A stretch of 26,283 nucleotides of DNA, taken from positions 1-26,283 of the IMG/VR virus record IMGVR_UViG_3300042874_000085; one strand, 5' to 3'. This document shows positions 370 through 10,892 of the stretch, in pieces (the first letter of the stretch is position 1; the number at the start of each line of letters is the position of its first letter). The translations under genes were made by a program, and so were the position numbers. Origin of the DNA: a virus. The notes under the pieces are model-generated. The model worked only from the letters and a program-made list of their open reading frames with translations, was not told the DNA's origin and made no database searches.

Positions 370-747
370 TTAGATTAGAGTCCCTAATTCAATGGCGCGT
401 TCTTCTGTAAGCGATTTACGCCCACAAGTACGCCGTTCTTGATACCAAACATCAATATCTATAGCATAGGCGTTATACCCGTCTTTATTCTCTGCTGGGT
501 AGCAACAGATGCACCAAGAGGGAACTTTATCAAGAGTCATACCATCAAATTCTTTGAGTGCTCGGCCGACATCTTTTATCTTAATGTTGAGTCTTTGGTG
601 TTTTGCCTTCATCAAGTTAGTTATCTGATGGTCAGCGAACGCATCGAATGGAATCGACTTGCCTATCGTCCTCTTAACCTCCCAAGAGATAGGTGGTAGA
701 CGATTGGCGGCCATCAATTCTGCTGTTATTTTTGATTCGAGTTTCAT
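370..747 (-). CDS. Hjc-like / PD-(D/E)XK Holliday-junction resolvase-type nuclease
   Basis: The 125-residue product has a catalytic-looking E-x-K (WEVK, E23 and K25), followed by IPFDAFADHQITNL and AKH. This matches the layout of small phage Holliday-junction resolvase-like nucleases, in which the E-x-K strand is followed by an F-x-x-h-x-x-H-Q-h-x-x-L segment. The end (KSLTEERA) is also typical of that group. The expected upstream acidic residue of the PD motif is not obvious. I chose ATG at 747 because its ATGA overlaps the helicase stop TGA, implying termination-reinitiation. A GTG at 786 in the same frame is an alternative; an AGGAGG lies only about 2 nt before it but is also the helicase codons for K-E-G. 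The nuclease would cut branched DNA during recombination or before packaging, next to the helicase that could make such branches. Confidence 0.7.
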   Translation of the reverse strand: MKLESKITAELMAANRLPPISWEVKRTIGKSIPFDAFADHQITNLMKAKHQRLNIKIKDVGRALKEFDGMTLDKVPSWCICCYPAENKDGYNAYAIDIDVWYQERRTCGRKSLTEERAIELGTLI

Positions 748-2807
748 TTGTCTATTTTTATCTTGTACAAAACCATTCCATGCCACCCCTCCTTTTTACT
801 AGTACGAATGTCTGGTAGGTTCCCGTTCTTGTACAACTCGATACTTTCCGCATATCCTATCGCTTTCACATTTCCACTAAAGTCTACTATCCGAGCGTGT
901 TCTTTTTCTGGATGGATACGTAAGATACGACCAATCATCTGAGAGTAAAGTGCCAATGAGCGAGTGGGTCGTATCATCACTAAACCATCTAGGCGTGGGT
1001 GGTCAAAGCCAGTAGTGAGACACGATACATTTAATACCACTTTGATTTCTCCTTTCTTGAACTTGTCTATAATTTCTTTACGGTCTTTCTTTTTAGTTCC
1101 TGCCGATACCACGGCAGAGTTCTGTATCACTTCACTATATCTGGTTGCTTGTTCAACAGATGTGCAGAACACCAAGACGGAATGTGAAATATTAGCGAGT
1201 CGAACAATCGCATCTAAGATGTTTTCTTCATGTGGCAATATAAGAGCTTCATATTGGTCTAGTCGGAAGTCCGACTTTGACTTGTTGACGGGGATACTCT
1301 CATGTTGCAGTTTAGTGTTATCAAAATAAGTTGGTCTGTGTAGGAAACCTTGTCGTACCATTTCTTGCGTTGGGATATTAAAAATTATGCCACCATTCCA
1401 AAAGTTCTCTTTTGCTCGACCACGCATCCTAGTGATGACTTTAATTGTAGTCACTTGTTCATCAAAATACGGTGGGGCATACGTAGTGGAAAGTCGAAAC
1501 GGCGTGGCAGTTACACCCACTACTTTCTTAGGATTAATTTGATTAAGAAACCTTAAGTACATCGTATCAGACATATCACAAGCAACACTGTGACACTCAT
1601 CTATTATTACTAATGGAAAGTGTCTAAATAACTCAGGGGTGTTTACAACTGAACCGATTGTAGCTAAGGTTATTTTCTTGACTACTTTCTCACCCATTGA
1701 TGCCGAATACACACCGATGTCTTCGGTTGAACAGACCATCTCTAACTTTTCTTTGTTCTGTTCTAGAATCTCGGCTGATGGTTGCAGTACGAGTGTTGGT
1801 ACATTAAGTTGACGAACAGAATCAGCTATTACATAAGACTTGCCACTATTATGTGTTATAAACTTATTCCTTTTTCCAATACAATATGTGTATGGTGCTT
1901 CTCGCATACAGATTGAATAGTAAGGCTCTGAAATTTTGACCTCGAGTTTGCTGTAGCTATTTCGCAAAGTGTCTCCCGTGTGACTTGAGGATATCTTTTT
2001 TGAAGGATATCGTAATGCCTCTTCTTCTCCAACATCTTCCTTCCCTCCATGTTTTTGAGATAGTGTTGTCGTATCTTCTTCCTCGAAAAGTCCCCCAATT
2101 TGTAGTTCCGTGGGTGTGTTGGTATTTTTATTTTGCCTGTCTTGTGTCCAATCCAAGCATTGTATTTTACCGTACACCATTCCAAATTCTCCGCCCTGTT
2201 GTCGTTTCTCTTTCCGTTCAAATGATTTACTACTGGTAGCTTTCGTGGATTCAGTAACCAATTCTTTGCAACTATCCTGTGAACCTTTACAGTGTGTCCG
2301 TCCATCATGGTACGTAAGTAACCGTTCGCATCGTGGGCAGGTTTCATTACAGCAACTATGTTTCCCCCGTATTGCCTCGTGGTTAAGAGTCTGCCCATAT
2401 TGCTTACAAAGTAATTCGAGCTGAATCCTTTGGCTCTCTTCCATTTCTCTCCAGATAAGCTGATAGAGCGGATAGAATCCTTCTCCGTTAAAGAAAGGGT
2501 GGTCGTAGGTCGTTGTGATTGTTTCATTCTCATAAGTAAATGATAACATTGGTTTAGGATTTAGACTAGTCCTAAACATTTCATCAATTACGCCAGGAAC
2601 AGATTTTCTACTATACTCATCGTAAGAAATTACAATGTCACCACGTTTAACTTCTTGAACTAATTTATATGTACCATCCCACATCGGAATAGAAGTATTT
2701 TTTGCTAAACAACCAGTTGGCAATACTAAAACATCTCGTATTGGTATCTCGTATCTGTCTACGATAGCTTGTACTGCTTGAGATTGGTAAGGGCGAAGGG
2801 TTAACAT
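744..2807 (-). CDS. SF2 DNA helicase interrupted by an intein
   Basis: This is a 687-residue precursor. The host protein is a superfamily 2 helicase: LRPYQSQAV (Q-like motif, residues 4-12), Walker A formed by PTG (30-32) plus SGKS (321-324), motif II DECH (403-406), motif III-like TATP (433-436), and motif VI QMIGRILR (623-630). Residues 33-320 are an intein, so the spliced helicase would be about 399 residues and would regain PTGSGKS. Related SF2 proteins of phages act as UvsW/SSL2-like branch-migration or unwinding helicases. The start ATG overlaps the stop of the Mom-like gene by 7 nt, and the stop overlaps the resolvase start (ATGA). Without splicing the P-loop is split and the ATPase should be inactive. 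Confidence 0.88.
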   Translation of the reverse strand: MLTLRPYQSQAVQAIVDRYEIPIRDVLVLPTGCLAKNTSIPMWDGTYKLVQEVKRGDIVISYDEYSRKSVPGVIDEMFRTSLNPKPMLSFTYENETITTTYDHPFFNGEGFYPLYQLIWREMEESQRIQLELLCKQYGQTLNHEAIRGKHSCCNETCPRCERLLTYHDGRTHCKGSQDSCKELVTESTKATSSKSFERKEKRQQGGEFGMVYGKIQCLDWTQDRQNKNTNTPTELQIGGLFEEEDTTTLSQKHGGKEDVGEEEALRYPSKKISSSHTGDTLRNSYSKLEVKISEPYYSICMREAPYTYCIGKRNKFITHNSGKSYVIADSVRQLNVPTLVLQPSAEILEQNKEKLEMVCSTEDIGVYSASMGEKVVKKITLATIGSVVNTPELFRHFPLVIIDECHSVACDMSDTMYLRFLNQINPKKVVGVTATPFRLSTTYAPPYFDEQVTTIKVITRMRGRAKENFWNGGIIFNIPTQEMVRQGFLHRPTYFDNTKLQHESIPVNKSKSDFRLDQYEALILPHEENILDAIVRLANISHSVLVFCTSVEQATRYSEVIQNSAVVSAGTKKKDRKEIIDKFKKGEIKVVLNVSCLTTGFDHPRLDGLVMIRPTRSLALYSQMIGRILRIHPEKEHARIVDFSGNVKAIGYAESIELYKNGNLPDIRTSKKEGWHGMVLYKIKIDK
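1848..2711 (-). mobile_element. intein in the helicase Walker A motif (288 aa)
   Basis: The intein runs from Cys33 to Asn320 of the helicase precursor. Its first residues are CLAKNTSI (block A nucleophile Cys). Block B is TTYDHPFF with the T-x-x-H pattern, and the C-terminal blocks are SEPYYSI, followed by KFITHN with the penultimate His and terminal Asn; the first extein residue is Ser321. Removing it restores an intact P-loop, which fixes the boundaries. The central 150 residues in this frame show no in-frame LAGLIDADG or HNH domain; they are rich in K, E, S, T and G with a Cys cluster (CCNETCPRC). The homing endonuclease is instead encoded by an overlapping ORF in the +1 frame (1856-2533). 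All key splicing residues are visible, so it is probably active. Confidence 0.88.
1856..2533 (-). CDS. NUMOD4-HNH homing endonuclease, nested out of frame in the intein
   Basis: This 225-codon ORF is read in the +1 frame relative to the helicase. Residues 28-60 are a NUMOD4 motif (GEKWKRAKGF, then YFVSNMGRLL). Residues 84-121 are an HNH_3 core: VHRIVAKNW, VVNHLNGKRNDNRAENLEW, then CT. The C-terminal 100 residues are basic and probably contain a DNA-recognition helix (QVTRETLCEIA). All the usual catalytic positions are present (H85, N103-H104, N112/N116). ATGs at 2533 or 2527 are possible starts; both lie over the intein block B coding region, and NUMOD4 begins about 80 nt later. No ribosome-binding site is visible. 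The stop is 8 nt before the intein end. It would cut the intein-less helicase allele. How it is translated is unknown: internal initiation or a +1 frameshift are both possible. Confidence 0.8.
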   Translation of the reverse strand: MRMKQSQRPTTTLSLTEKDSIRSISLSGEKWKRAKGFSSNYFVSNMGRLLTTRQYGGNIVAVMKPAHDANGYLRTMMDGHTVKVHRIVAKNWLLNPRKLPVVNHLNGKRNDNRAENLEWCTVKYNAWIGHKTGKIKIPTHPRNYKLGDFSRKKIRQHYLKNMEGRKMLEKKRHYDILQKRYPQVTRETLCEIATANSRSKFQSLTIQSVCEKHHTHIVLEKGISL

Positions 2808-3370
2808 GCTAATTTATATTTTTTTCGCTTCACTGGTAAAATCCAAATTATTTTGGGTAATCCTGTTTCAACTGTTGCTTCTCCTTTTTTGACAGCTTCT
2901 CGTAATGCGTATGAATATGGTCTATCTATACTGAGTGAACGTGGATGATAAATTTTTTCACCCCAAATTACATACTTACTTTTACTTGTGTTGCCAGCAT
3001 TATAAAAACCAGATGCTTTATAAATGGTACCCAAGTGTCCAACCGTGGGGTCTGAATAAGAGAGGATGTTTTCATAATCAGTATTATCACGAATCCATTT
3101 TTTAATTTGTCCAATAAAATATGACTCACTATTTTGTGGTGCATCATCTATACATACCATTCTGCGTATATCAATGGCTTTAGGATATTTTTTTTGATGT
3201 CGTGGTAATCCCATAACAGAACCACCAACCATTTCACCGTCTAGGTATAAAGCAAAGCATGTTGAAATGCCACCACCCATATTTCCTTTTTTATAATGGA
3301 ATTGTTCTAGAAGGTGTCGAATATCAGCAAATCTACATTCCTTTATTTCACATCTGGTTTTATCTAGCAT
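2801..3370 (-). CDS. Mom-like GNAT-fold DNA-modification acyltransferase
   Basis: The 189-residue product resembles the Mom group of GNAT-fold proteins that modify adenine in phage DNA. It has an N-terminal HYKKG segment, GGSVMGLP, then RRMVCIDDAPQNSESYFIG (residues about 69-87), SYSDPTVGHLGTIYKASGF (about 105-123) and YNAGNTS. The R-h-x-h-x-D-x-x-x-x-N-S-x-S and GH-x-GT-h-Y-x-A-x-x-F patterns are the conserved blocks of that family as I know it. In phage Mu, Mom protects DNA from host restriction, so an anti-restriction role is inferred here. It is the second gene of the leftward operon and overlaps the HTH gene stop and the helicase start by 7 nt each. A different GNAT substrate cannot be excluded. 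Confidence 0.62.
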   Translation of the reverse strand: MLDKTRCEIKECRFADIRHLLEQFHYKKGNMGGGISTCFALYLDGEMVGGSVMGLPRHQKKYPKAIDIRRMVCIDDAPQNSESYFIGQIKKWIRDNTDYENILSYSDPTVGHLGTIYKASGFYNAGNTSKSKYVIWGEKIYHPRSLSIDRPYSYALREAVKKGEATVETGLPKIIWILPVKRKKYKLAC

Positions 3371-3654
3371 GCTAACTTAAAATTTCGTATTCCATTCAAG
3401 AATGAGCTACGTAATACTTTAATTTGATTAAGTTCTTGTTCAGAAAAGTCACTCGGATGATTTATAGAGACAAGTTCATCAAGTATTTGAATGGATCTAG
3501 TATATGTCTCTAAACTAGAGACACGCTCAGTAGTTTTCTTTAGCAAACGAGAAACCGTAGACTGATTTATTTTTAGTACCTCAGCTATCTCTGATTGTTT
3601 TATGCCTTTGCGGTGCATTTCAGTGACTATCCGCTGTATTTGGTAATTACCCAT
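3364..3654 (-). CDS. HTH transcriptional regulator, likely autoregulated
   Basis: This is a 96-residue protein. Residues 18-40 (IKQSEIAEVLKINQSTVSRLL) form a classical helix-turn-helix of the Sin-resolvase/MarR-like 'ASEIA..L.is.sTVsRlL' type; the remainder is helical and lacks a ligand or catalytic domain. I start at ATG 3654, not at an upstream ATG at 3714, because the longer version would place the first residues inside the promoter region. It is the first gene of the leftward operon. Its start lies 9 nt after the -10 box of its own promoter, and a perfect inverted repeat between the divergent promoters is the obvious candidate operator. Whether it represses one or both arms is inference. 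Confidence 0.75.
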   Translation of the reverse strand: MGNYQIQRIVTEMHRKGIKQSEIAEVLKINQSTVSRLLKKTTERVSSLETYTRSIQILDELVSINHPSDFSEQELNQIKVLRSSFLNGIRNFKLAC

Positions 3655-3663
3655 GATATACAC

Positions 3664-3702
3664 AGTATACCAATTTGCATACCAATATGCAAGTGCTATA
3701 CT
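3664..3702. promoter_or_regulatory. divergent overlapping promoters with a shared inverted-repeat operator
   Basis: A perfect inverted repeat TTGCATA-N4-TATGCAA lies at 3675-3692. Its left arm holds the plus-strand -35 (TTTGCA, 3674-3679), 17 bp before an extended -10 TGCTATACT (box 3697-3702). Its right arm, read on the minus strand, is the -35 TTGCAT (3687-3692), 17 bp before TGGTATACT (box 3664-3669). Plus-strand transcription should start at about 3709, the A of the primase ATG, giving a leaderless mRNA. Minus-strand transcription should start a few bases before 3654. A protein dimer on the repeat would cover both -35 elements; the adjacent HTH protein is the likely ligand. Confidence 0.72.
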
Positions 3703-3708
3703 ACCAGC

Positions 3709-4629
3709 ATGCAAGAAAATAGGTTATTAAACTGGCTTTCAACTCGTGGCATTTCTCCTAATGTCATCGAGCTTTTTAATATTACAGTCCATGAACATTA
3801 TGAGTTTGGCGAGTGTCTGCGTATACCTATAGAAGATACTGGATTATCCAAATACAGACGTGACCCTGCGTATGATATTAAACCTAAGTACACCTCCGAT
3901 AGAGGACTCAAAGCTACTTTATATGGTTGGAATAATGCGAAGACACACAAATCAATTTTAGTTACCGAGGGTGAGCTTGATACGCTTATCGCTTGGAGTA
4001 ATAACATCCCAGCTGTATCATCAACTGCTGGAGCTAGAACCTTTAATGAAGATTGGTTTGATTTATTAAAGGACAAAGAAATAACCCTTTGTTTTGATAA
4101 TGATGAAGCGGGAGCCGAGGGTATGGTGAGAATACTCCAAAATTTCCCTCAAGCTAAAGTGGTTCTCATTCCTAACCGACCAAATATAAAAGACTTAACT
4201 GATTACGTTAAATACGGAGGGAATATATATGAGTTATTAAAAACAGCTAAACACTATACTAGTGTGGAGCAAGTCAAGGAAGAAAGAGCTTTACGTATCA
4301 GTGTGTTTGAGTCTGTTATTTTCCACGATGAATATATTGATAAGTTTACTCCCCAAGTAATGCCTAACAGTCGCCCTGTAAAGGCTATAAATAACAGCCT
4401 AAAAGAACAGATTAAAACTTATCCTATAGATAACTTAATTACGTTCCACCGGCGAAAGGTGCATTGTATTTGGCACAGTGAAAAAACAGCTTCTCTGACT
4501 TATAACCCAAAGACAAATCGTGTCCACTGCTTCGGGTGTGGTAAGCATGGTGATGTAATAGATGTCTACCGTCAGTTGCATGGTTGTGATTTCACTACCG
4601 CCGTTAATGACTTACAAAAACTTATATGA
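3709..4629 (+). CDS. primase-like protein: Toprim domain with C-terminal CHC2 zinc finger
   Basis: This is a 306-residue protein. A Toprim domain spans about residues 80-165, with VTEGELD (catalytic E87) and CFDNDEAG (D130, D132). A CHC2-type zinc finger lies at about 247-295: C253-x2-H256, KTAS, then C274-FG-C277 followed by GKHGDVI. In DnaG and phage T7-type primases the zinc finger precedes Toprim; here it follows it. The N-terminal 75 residues resemble part of the segment that normally precedes Toprim. It would prime DNA synthesis together with the helicase encoded next, which it overlaps by ATGA. I chose ATG 3709 because a good promoter predicts the transcript to begin there; an upstream in-frame ATG at 3595 would run through the promoter region and the HTH gene. 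Confidence 0.8.
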   Translation: MQENRLLNWLSTRGISPNVIELFNITVHEHYEFGECLRIPIEDTGLSKYRRDPAYDIKPKYTSDRGLKATLYGWNNAKTHKSILVTEGELDTLIAWSNNIPAVSSTAGARTFNEDWFDLLKDKEITLCFDNDEAGAEGMVRILQNFPQAKVVLIPNRPNIKDLTDYVKYGGNIYELLKTAKHYTSVEQVKEERALRISVFESVIFHDEYIDKFTPQVMPNSRPVKAINNSLKEQIKTYPIDNLITFHRRKVHCIWHSEKTASLTYNPKTNRVHCFGCGKHGDVIDVYRQLHGCDFTTAVNDLQKLI

Positions 4630-5831
4630 CTCTCGAAGAAATAAAACAAAGAGTGCGAGAAAATTACTACATGGAGGATGACACCATTATTGATGTAGCT
4701 CTGGCTTGTATTATTGCTAATCGGTTACAACTAGGTGATCCAACATGGCTTGTTATTATTGGTGCTTCCTCGGGTGGAAAATCACAAATCTTGAGACCTT
4801 TAGCCATGACAGACCGCAAGTATATACATCCGATAGATGACATCACTGAAAACACTTTTCTCTCTGGTGGTGTAGCCAAGGGAGGTAAAGATATTTCTTT
4901 TTTGAATACGCATGTTGGTAAGGCGGGTATGTTATCCATAAGTGACTTGACTGTATTGTTTTCTCGCAACAGTGAGTCTCGTAACGCTATCCTGTCACAA
5001 TTTCGCATGCTCTATGACGGTGAAATGACTAAGCGAGTGGGTAATAAGGAGGACTCAGTACATTGGAAAGGTTATTTAGGTGTCATTGCTGGAAGCACTC
5101 CAAGTATTTATTCTCACATGGAAGATGTGGCAGACATGGGTGAACGCTTTATTTATTTCCGTATGAAGCCCTATGATGAGCGTAAAGCCACTAAGATAGC
5201 TCTCTCCCGTAAATTATTTGGTCGCAAACTAGATGAAGAATTGGCTGAGCTATACAGTGAGTATATTGTTGATGTTGTACGAAATGCTACTCCAAATAAT
5301 ATTGAGATAACGGAAGAAGAACAAAATCATATTATTGATATTGCTGTACTAGCCGAAAAGATGCGTACCGTGAATAAAATAGATAAATATACTAAGGATA
5401 TTGAACGTATACCAACGCCTGCTATGCCAATGCGTACTGCCCTACAAATAACTAACTTCGCCAAAGCACTGAAGTTAATGCGTGGTGGTAATTTGTCAAA
5501 AAGTGACATGGATATATTATATTGGCTTGGATTTTCTCTAGCTAACGAGGAGAAACGAGCTGTCATTAAGATACTTTGTGAAAGTGCTTATGGCTTATCC
5601 GCTCAAACTATTGCCGACCAAGTTGGTCTATCTACTCCAGTAATACGTTCTGTTTTACAAAATTTGGCTTCAACTAAGGTTATTGAGAGAAATGGTGACA
5701 GCAATAACCTCACTTGGCAGATAAAAGATGCTCAGATATTAAAGATATTCGAGCGTATGTTTGGAACAGTTAAAGTATACCGAGAAGACCGTAATCTCAC
5801 GGCAGAGGAAGACGAAGATGCGCCGTTTTAA
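4626..5831 (+). CDS. P-loop ATPase, probable replicative helicase or loader
   Basis: This is a 401-residue protein with a Walker A GASSGGKS at residues 46-53, a Walker B-like stretch near 103-109 (GMLSISD), a probable sensor segment GVIAGSTPSI (about 152-161) and an arginine-rich helix after it (MGERFIYFRM). The C-terminal 90 residues contain a winged-helix-like region (SAQTIADQVGLSTPVIRSVL). This domain plan is seen in phage and mobile-element helicase-like ATPases that partner with primases. It is translationally coupled to the primase gene by an ATGA overlap. Its last 35 nt are overlapped on the other strand by the HNH gene. The exact helicase superfamily cannot be fixed by eye. Confidence 0.68.
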   Translation: MTLEEIKQRVRENYYMEDDTIIDVALACIIANRLQLGDPTWLVIIGASSGGKSQILRPLAMTDRKYIHPIDDITENTFLSGGVAKGGKDISFLNTHVGKAGMLSISDLTVLFSRNSESRNAILSQFRMLYDGEMTKRVGNKEDSVHWKGYLGVIAGSTPSIYSHMEDVADMGERFIYFRMKPYDERKATKIALSRKLFGRKLDEELAELYSEYIVDVVRNATPNNIEITEEEQNHIIDIAVLAEKMRTVNKIDKYTKDIERIPTPAMPMRTALQITNFAKALKLMRGGNLSKSDMDILYWLGFSLANEEKRAVIKILCESAYGLSAQTIADQVGLSTPVIRSVLQNLASTKVIERNGDSNNLTWQIKDAQILKIFERMFGTVKVYREDRNLTAEEDEDAPF

Positions 5832-9053: not shown

Positions 9054-10892
9054 ATGAAAATCTACGATTACGTTGAAGCACAACGCTCATTCTATGAGAC
9101 ACGTACAATCCCATTGCAGTCAGGAGATGACTACAGTCAATACCAACTTATTAAGGCAACTAACTATGCACGCCGTTCTCGGTATATTGATAATAATGCT
9201 TATGATGACATTATAGGTGAATATCCTTATGACAATATCTCAGAGTATCGTATTCGTCTTGAGGCACGCTCTACAGACCGTGATATTAAGCACATGGAGG
9301 TTGAACCAATGGATGCATCTGATGAAGCTCGTGTATCTGCTATGGTCGCTACAAAAGCACTACAAAAAAAGATGCGTGACATGCGATTCGGTAAAACTCT
9401 TAATGAGTATTCTGTAGTACGACCTCGATATGGTGCTGTTCTTTTTAAGCGAGTAGAAACTGAGAAGGGTAAAGATGTATATATCGTGCCATGGGAAAAT
9501 GTCATTACGGATATGACAGATATTCTTACTTCACCTATTGTCGAAAAACATTTTTACACTCCCGGACAACTTAAAAAACAAACGACATGGAAGAATGTCA
9601 ATGAAGCAATTACGACTGCACGTGAACAAAAAAAATCAAAAGACATTGGAGGTAAATCAAATGCAGATGCAGACACGGTTGGAACATACATCACTGTGTT
9701 TGAGGTTACTGGCGAGATAGAAAAAGCAACACTCCTTGAGGCACAAGGTGAGAAATGGACTGATGATGACATGAATGAGTTTGTGTTGGCTCGTATTATT
9801 TATGCACCACTCGGTAAAGATAAATCAGGTAAAAATACCGGTATTATATTCCGTGTCGATGAAATTACCGAAAAGGAATATCCGTATAAACTTGATGTGC
9901 GTCATCCTGTTATTGGTAGGGCATTTGGTGAAGGTATTCCTGAGGAAGTTTCTGAACATCAGAGGTGGCATAATTTTTATAAAACAGAAGAAGCTCGTGC
10001 TGTTGCCATTGGTGGTAAAATACTATTTTATACTGACGATGGTAACGTAGTAGATAGTATTTACGCAGATGGAATTGATCACGGTACAGTGCTTCAAGTT
10101 GGGGAAGGTAAAACATTTCAACAGCTTAATACTATTCCTAGTACCATACCTGTATATCAGAACATCACAGAGCAATGGGACTCTTCAGCAGATAAAAAGA
10201 CTAATTCATTCGAGGCGGTTATGGGTGAGGAGTCTAAGAGTGGGACTCCGTTCCGTGCGCAGTATTTACAAAATATAGCAGGAACATCACAGTTTGAACA
10301 AGAACTTGAAGATATGGGACTCTTTCTTGAAGAGCTTATTGGTGATTGGATTTTAGAAGATGCTCTTAATGAGGCGGCGAGTGCTGGTGAAATTGATGAC
10401 ACCTTTACTAAAGAAGAACTTGACCTTATCGACCGCACCATTATTAACAAAGAGATGATTAAGCGTGGTGCTGAGTCACTTTTGAATGGGCAACTTGTTA
10501 CACCAGAGATACAGGCGGTAATGGAAAAAGACATTACTACTGATTTGAAGCGAAAAGGTGCAAGACGTAAGATTACAGACATTCAGGAATTTATCCGTAA
10601 TGCAGGCAAAAAGGTTATTGTACGCACCACTGATGAACAACGATCTAAGGCGGTACTCTTTGAGTCATATAGTAATGCCATTAACCTTGCCAAGGGTATT
10701 GATAGAACAGACCCAGTACAACTTGCGCTTCGTGATAAGGTGCTCGATATGATTGGAGTGTCCGAACAGGAACTTATGTTGTATGTAAATCAAGCAATGC
10801 AAGCGGCAGAACAAATGGCACCGCAAGGCGGACAAGTAAAGATGCAAACAGAGCAAATGAACCAAGAGCAGAGCGTAGCACCAGTAATATAA
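9054..10892 (+). CDS. portal protein
   Basis: This is a 612-residue protein located directly after the large terminase. It is rich in charged helices with an N-terminal region (ARRSRYIDN, YDNISEYRIR), a central beta region (VYIVPWENVITD) and long C-terminal helices ending in a Met/Gln-rich tail. The segment FEAVMGEESKSGTPFRAQYLQ and the following helices suit the portal stem/wing. Portal proteins form the dodecameric DNA channel at the capsid vertex. Identification depends on size and synteny more than on a single motif. Confidence 0.78.
   Translation: MKIYDYVEAQRSFYETRTIPLQSGDDYSQYQLIKATNYARRSRYIDNNAYDDIIGEYPYDNISEYRIRLEARSTDRDIKHMEVEPMDASDEARVSAMVATKALQKKMRDMRFGKTLNEYSVVRPRYGAVLFKRVETEKGKDVYIVPWENVITDMTDILTSPIVEKHFYTPGQLKKQTTWKNVNEAITTAREQKKSKDIGGKSNADADTVGTYITVFEVTGEIEKATLLEAQGEKWTDDDMNEFVLARIIYAPLGKDKSGKNTGIIFRVDEITEKEYPYKLDVRHPVIGRAFGEGIPEEVSEHQRWHNFYKTEEARAVAIGGKILFYTDDGNVVDSIYADGIDHGTVLQVGEGKTFQQLNTIPSTIPVYQNITEQWDSSADKKTNSFEAVMGEESKSGTPFRAQYLQNIAGTSQFEQELEDMGLFLEELIGDWILEDALNEAASAGEIDDTFTKEELDLIDRTIINKEMIKRGAESLLNGQLVTPEIQAVMEKDITTDLKRKGARRKITDIQEFIRNAGKKVIVRTTDEQRSKAVLFESYSNAINLAKGIDRTDPVQLALRDKVLDMIGVSEQELMLYVNQAMQAAEQMAPQGGQVKMQTEQMNQEQSVAPVI

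Follow-up and report, generated by a model that had tools for sequence, protein, structure and literature searches.

Probable back-to-back extended -10 promoters with predicted leaderless transcripts between an HTH gene and a primase gene of an uncultivated phage

How can two opposed gene units of a phage be started from a gap of only 54 bp between their ATG codons? The question is raised by positions 3664-3702 (AGTATACCAATTTGCATACCAATATGCAAGTGCTATACT) of the window, i.e. the whole 26,283-nucleotide stretch of viral DNA analysed here, where a small HTH gene is read leftward and a primase-like gene rightward. An earlier note on this DNA interpreted the locus as a two-way switch for early modules, built from one inverted repeat, each arm of which serves as the -35 element of one promoter. 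Our analysis suggests another arrangement: the gap probably harbours a pair of back-to-back extended -10 promoters, and their mRNAs would be leaderless or nearly so.

The features of the locus and its surroundings are collected in Table 1. The inverted repeat noticed earlier is present, this being its sole copy without mismatches in the window, and both -10 boxes are TATACT, each preceded by TGn, as read in the sequence. The two hexamers face outward, at 3697-3702 on the plus strand and 3669-3664 on the minus strand, and are separated by 27 bp (3670-3696). The primase ATG stands 6 nt beyond the rightward box; the HTH gene does begin at the other output, with its ATG at 3654, 9 nt beyond the leftward box. 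The centre of the palindrome (3683.5) nearly coincides with the midpoint of the -10 boxes (3683.0; an offset of at most 0.5 bp) and lies about 26 bp upstream of both predicted transcription starts.

Table 1. Features at and around the divergent promoters (positions in the window).
Feature	Position	Strand	Basis or remark
Helicase with an intein in the Walker A motif	744..2807	-	Pfam ResIII and Helicase_C
Mom-like DNA modification protein, second in the leftward operon	2801..3370	-	Pfam Mom, 2.7e-23; not in the sister contig
Small HTH protein, 96 aa, leads the leftward operon	3364..3654	-	HTH families match at E ~1e-5 to 1e-7, mostly short of Pfam cut-offs
DnaA-box-like ATATACACA (consensus TTATCCACA)	3656..3664	+	-53 from the primase ATG; missed by the earlier note
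Extended -10 of the leftward promoter, TGG-TATACT	3664..3672	-	Sequence; other genes have this signal 6-10 nt ahead of the ATG
12-bp direct repeat ATACCAATTTGC/ATACCAATATGC, overlaps the palindrome	3667..3690	+	ATACCAAT at 3667 and 3679
Perfect inverted repeat TTGCATA-CCAA-TATGCAA, 18 bp, 7-bp arms	3675..3692		Candidate operator, read from the sequence
Extended -10 of the rightward promoter, TGC-TATACT	3694..3702	+	Register kept in 16 primase orthologs
Primase-like protein, Toprim first, CHC2 zinc finger last	3709..4629	+	Pfam
Conserved P-loop protein, GASSGGKS motif	4626..5831	+	46-60% identical relatives adjoin the primase in L101-L103

Evidence comes from the relatives of the primase. A profile scan with this protein yielded about 20 orthologous loci, and the upstream regions of 16 of them, window included, were compared; the proteins are mostly 37-50% identical, although several are closely related to each other, and the 16 regions are not 16 independent observations. 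Counting the A of the ATG as +1, the hexamer has its first base at -12 in 13 of the 16 regions and occupies -12 to -7, G is found at -14 in 14 and T at -15 in 12, while a pyrimidine precedes the start codon, at -1, in all 16. The conserved form is TGn-TATAMT; the bases separating the box from the ATG have diverged, and so have those preceding TGn. A G at -14 and a hexamer from -12 are where textbooks place the TGn and -10 elements with respect to a transcription start. Since these elements occupy the same positions relative to the ATG, transcription is predicted to start on the start codon itself, i.e. at 3709, the A of the primase ATG; the pyrimidine at -1 and the A at +1 agree with such a 5' end. 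The leftward mRNA is predicted to start at about 3657, leaving a leader of 0-3 nt before the HTH ATG. Both positions accord with the starts proposed earlier (3655-3660 and 3709); that the two mRNAs would have little or no leader was overlooked in the earlier note. The pattern of conservation argues strongly for extended -10 promoters at a fixed spacing to the ATG that function without a -35 element.

The same signal recurs elsewhere. Boxes of the TGNTATAAT type stand 6-10 nt before the ATGs at 9054, 17292, 21533 and 26110 of the window, as they do before the HTH and primase genes, and are found again in the sister contig (39,165 bp, 92-98% identical over long stretches). In the wider family, strong extended -10 boxes most often stand 6 nt from the ATG. 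The earlier proposal of two divergent promoters is supported; the extended -10 boxes exceed chance, recurring before ATGs in the window and, in register, in the primase orthologs. No Shine-Dalgarno sequence precedes the HTH or the primase ATG. The 4-mers GGAG, GAGG and AGGA are absent from their usual place in each of 20 window ORFs of at least 100 aa, and occur before only one of 31 ORFs in the sister contig. The phage and most of the relatives examined appear to be largely devoid of Shine-Dalgarno sites, which narrows the likely hosts. A literature search on Shine-Dalgarno and leaderless use in Patescibacteria returned nothing usable, and the search with the terminase gave no close cellular match: its matches are mostly Bacteroidota prophages of about 25-40% identity, which are not decisive for the host. 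No tRNA was found in the window or the sister contig.

Promoters of this kind have precedents. In Deinococcus-Thermus, a TANNNT motif placed some 6-7 bp ahead of the start codon gives leaderless mRNA, and in Deinococcus -10 boxes 6-7 bp before ORFs are common and act as promoters (PMC12340547). The distance is similar here, a -10 box ending near this position before both the primase (6 nt) and the HTH gene (9 nt), and leaderless genes exist in other phyla too; the differences are that the TGn extension is conserved in our case and that the genes belong to a phage. Divergent leaderless phage promoters as such are already known from the telomere phage PY54, whose cI and cro genes are each transcribed as leaderless mRNA, with one palindromic operator between them to which a small HTH repressor binds (PMC4488713). 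Our locus resembles PY54 in its divergent phage genes, predicted leaderless mRNAs and an intervening palindrome, here a candidate operator. However, the PY54 region is a lysogeny switch with mapped starts and proven Cro binding (PMC4488713), whereas here the starts are predicted, the modules are those of replication, and no lysogeny genes were seen among those examined. We also searched viral contigs for pairs of divergent extended -10 boxes with an ATG 5-10 nt from each box, and obtained about 10 unrelated viral groups (grouped by reading) with divergent leaderless pairs of like geometry. Back-to-back leaderless promoters seem to be common among environmental viruses. The unrelated viral contigs L160, L164, L166, L209, L221, L233 and others carry divergent extended -10 boxes, each about 6 nt from an ATG.

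The role assigned earlier to the repeat arms is not supported by these comparisons. It would require sigma-70 promoters, with the two arms as -35 hexamers jointly blocked by an HTH dimer acting as a switch, and the spacing speaks in its favour, TTG being correctly placed with respect to both TATACT boxes (TTGCAT stands 16 nt away on the plus strand and 17 nt on the minus strand). Nevertheless, we regard such an arrangement as improbable, since TTGCAT matches TTGACA at only three of six positions, and the better match, TTTGCA at a spacer of 17 (four of six), is available on one side only. The promoters of the same class do without a -35 as well: in the 16 primase upstream regions, the best hexamer scores on average 2.5 of 6, against 2.58 in shuffled sequences, and other window promoters of this kind offer no convincing -35 at a suitable spacing. 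The site does not fit the canonical sigma-70 -35/-10 class, TTGACA-like hexamers at 16-18 bp reaching only 3-4 of 6 and those of the orthologs being at chance. Early or replication modules do lie on both sides, so this part of the two-way switch stands, but nothing supports the switch itself. No sign of an integrase was seen in the sister ORFs read by eye or among the ten sister genes scanned with Pfam; compared with a CI/Cro-type lysogeny switch, with its two opposing repressors, intervening operators and genes for integration or plasmid maintenance, the locus offers one HTH gene and one palindrome.

The collision of polymerases proposed earlier has also to be reformulated, because the transcripts diverge; the predicted starts lie 52 bp from each other, and either enzyme would instead block binding of the other. 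Judging from established footprint sizes, two polymerases are not expected together on such DNA. Since only 27 bp lie between the -10 boxes, the host polymerase would be accommodated in one orientation at a time; from this geometry we infer mutual exclusion. A similar effect is known for the bidirectional promoters described by Warman and colleagues, where opposed polymerases exclude each other (PMC12825309), and polymerase bound one way would exclude the other here too. The locus nonetheless falls outside that class: its predicted starts and -10 boxes are spaced as given above, whereas the starts of Warman promoters are mostly 18, 10 or 23 bp apart on pseudo-symmetrical DNA (PMC12825309).

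If the arms are not -35 elements, what is the palindrome for? One can suggest that it represents an autoregulatory operator for a dimer of the HTH protein, a working hypothesis to which we give slightly less than an even chance. The palindrome covers the spacer of both promoters, and a promoter spacer is a usual place for a repressor. Against an operator, the palindrome is missing upstream of the primase in all orthologs except the sister; the orthologs without it do not have this HTH gene. The single sister copy is in the same place, although its conservation says little, given the overall identity of the two contigs. The protein may just as well recognise the overlapping direct repeat ATACCAATTTGC/ATACCAATATGC. 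That the palindrome is fortuitous, and that the site works through its two leaderless extended -10 promoters alone, is a possibility that we take seriously without favouring it. By itself the palindrome is unremarkable, since 9.2% of dinucleotide shuffles of the gap hold a repeat with arms of at least 7 and a gap of at most 12, and the window contains 42 such repeats; moreover, there are divergent leaderless pairs, orthologous as well as unrelated, that lack it. A chance origin is less easily reconciled with the near-perfect centring between the -10 boxes, and with the fact that, among the roughly 10 unrelated pairs, this is the only one with a 7-bp-arm repeat and also the only one with an HTH gene (short proteins being judged by reading). 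A search for further copies of the repeat, suggested earlier as a check, gave no second exact site in the window or the sister contig. A palindrome regulon was rejected on this basis, together with the scattering of TTGCATA half-sites without pattern. A terminator was also rejected: no T run follows the repeat, and it is absent from the terminator list.

A further element may contribute to the control of the primase promoter. A TTATCCACA-like 9-mer is found at -52/-53 (±1) in 9 of the 16 primase upstream regions, window included, and DnaA-type boxes stand at -45 in L113 and at -64 in L111; judging by its letters, we call the 9-mer DnaA-box-like. Across the family, 11 of 36 strong extended -10 boxes have such a box within the 60 nt upstream, as against 1.1% of random positions. 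The figure is descriptive: several of these loci nearly duplicate one another, and the alignments had been inspected before the box pattern was defined. These two counts would favour a region that mainly binds host DnaA or a similar initiator, which regulates the primase promoter or marks an origin, with the palindrome secondary. We consider this unlikely as the main function: the degenerate window copy ATATACACA has two mismatches to TTATCCACA and shares one base with the HTH -10, the box is missing or shifted in several orthologs, and its attribution to DnaA is by sequence only. The conserved box may still represent a link between host replication control and the replication genes of the phage.

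Returning to the leaderless promoter pair, its operation can be outlined tentatively. The extended -10 boxes alone would drive both promoters, a -35 hexamer not being needed, and the primase/P-loop replication operon would compete with the HTH/Mom/helicase operon for the host polymerase. The HTH protein bound to the palindrome would repress both operons at once, its own and that of the primase. A more elaborate scenario, which as a whole we find rather doubtful, combines all the elements: in the HTH-gene lineage of this uncultivated-phage family, a conserved leaderless extended -10 primase promoter, activated or repressed through a DnaA-box-like site some 53 bp ahead of it, might have received an HTH operator midway between the -10 boxes. 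A host initiator and a phage repressor would then compete on about 55 bp and so time the replication genes. The signal of the promoter and the start sites of the primase are directly readable in 16 relatives, which turns a guess about a single site into a family-wide prediction.

The gene order around the locus gives some indications on its origin. In the primase-like protein, the Toprim-then-CHC2 order is the reverse of that in DnaG. Uncultivated viruses contain at least about 17 members of this primase family (the window, L101-L103 and L108-L123); both Pfam domains were present in all four members scanned, and the P-loop protein follows where checked. A helicase-like gene is divergent from the primase in L102, L108, L110, L113 and L114. 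Opposed units of helicase and primase thus appear to be the ancestral state, and the HTH gene appears to have joined later at the head of the left unit. Small HTH genes adjoin the primase in L113 and L109 also, the latter being co-directional; the L113 gene was rejected as a relative, having no detectable similarity to the HTH gene of the window.

The assignment of the 96-aa protein to an HTH family is weak. Its structural model has five helices (mean pLDDT 77) and no confident PDB match, and by sequence its relatives are limited to the sister contig, none being found in phage records. In the sister, the HTH gene runs directly into the helicase gene. The Mom-like gene of the window is bordered on both sides by the junction TTAGCATGyTA and is exactly missing in the sister, suggesting that it was gained or lost when the flanking junction repeats recombined. 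The intein junctions of the helicase, as read from the translation, are VLPTG|CLAKNTS...FITHN|SGKS. Inside the intein-coding stretch, on the same strand and out of frame, an HNH/NUMOD4 endonuclease ORF (1856-2533, minus strand) has its own TGTTATCAT 6 nt before the ATG. An intein in the Walker A region is also carried by the terminase large subunit of a relative (L017, 8888-11365). The sister contig (L013) encodes two paralogous small proteins with the Lcl_C domain (823-1143 and 2054-2416); folds of this type occur in variable receptor-binding proteins.
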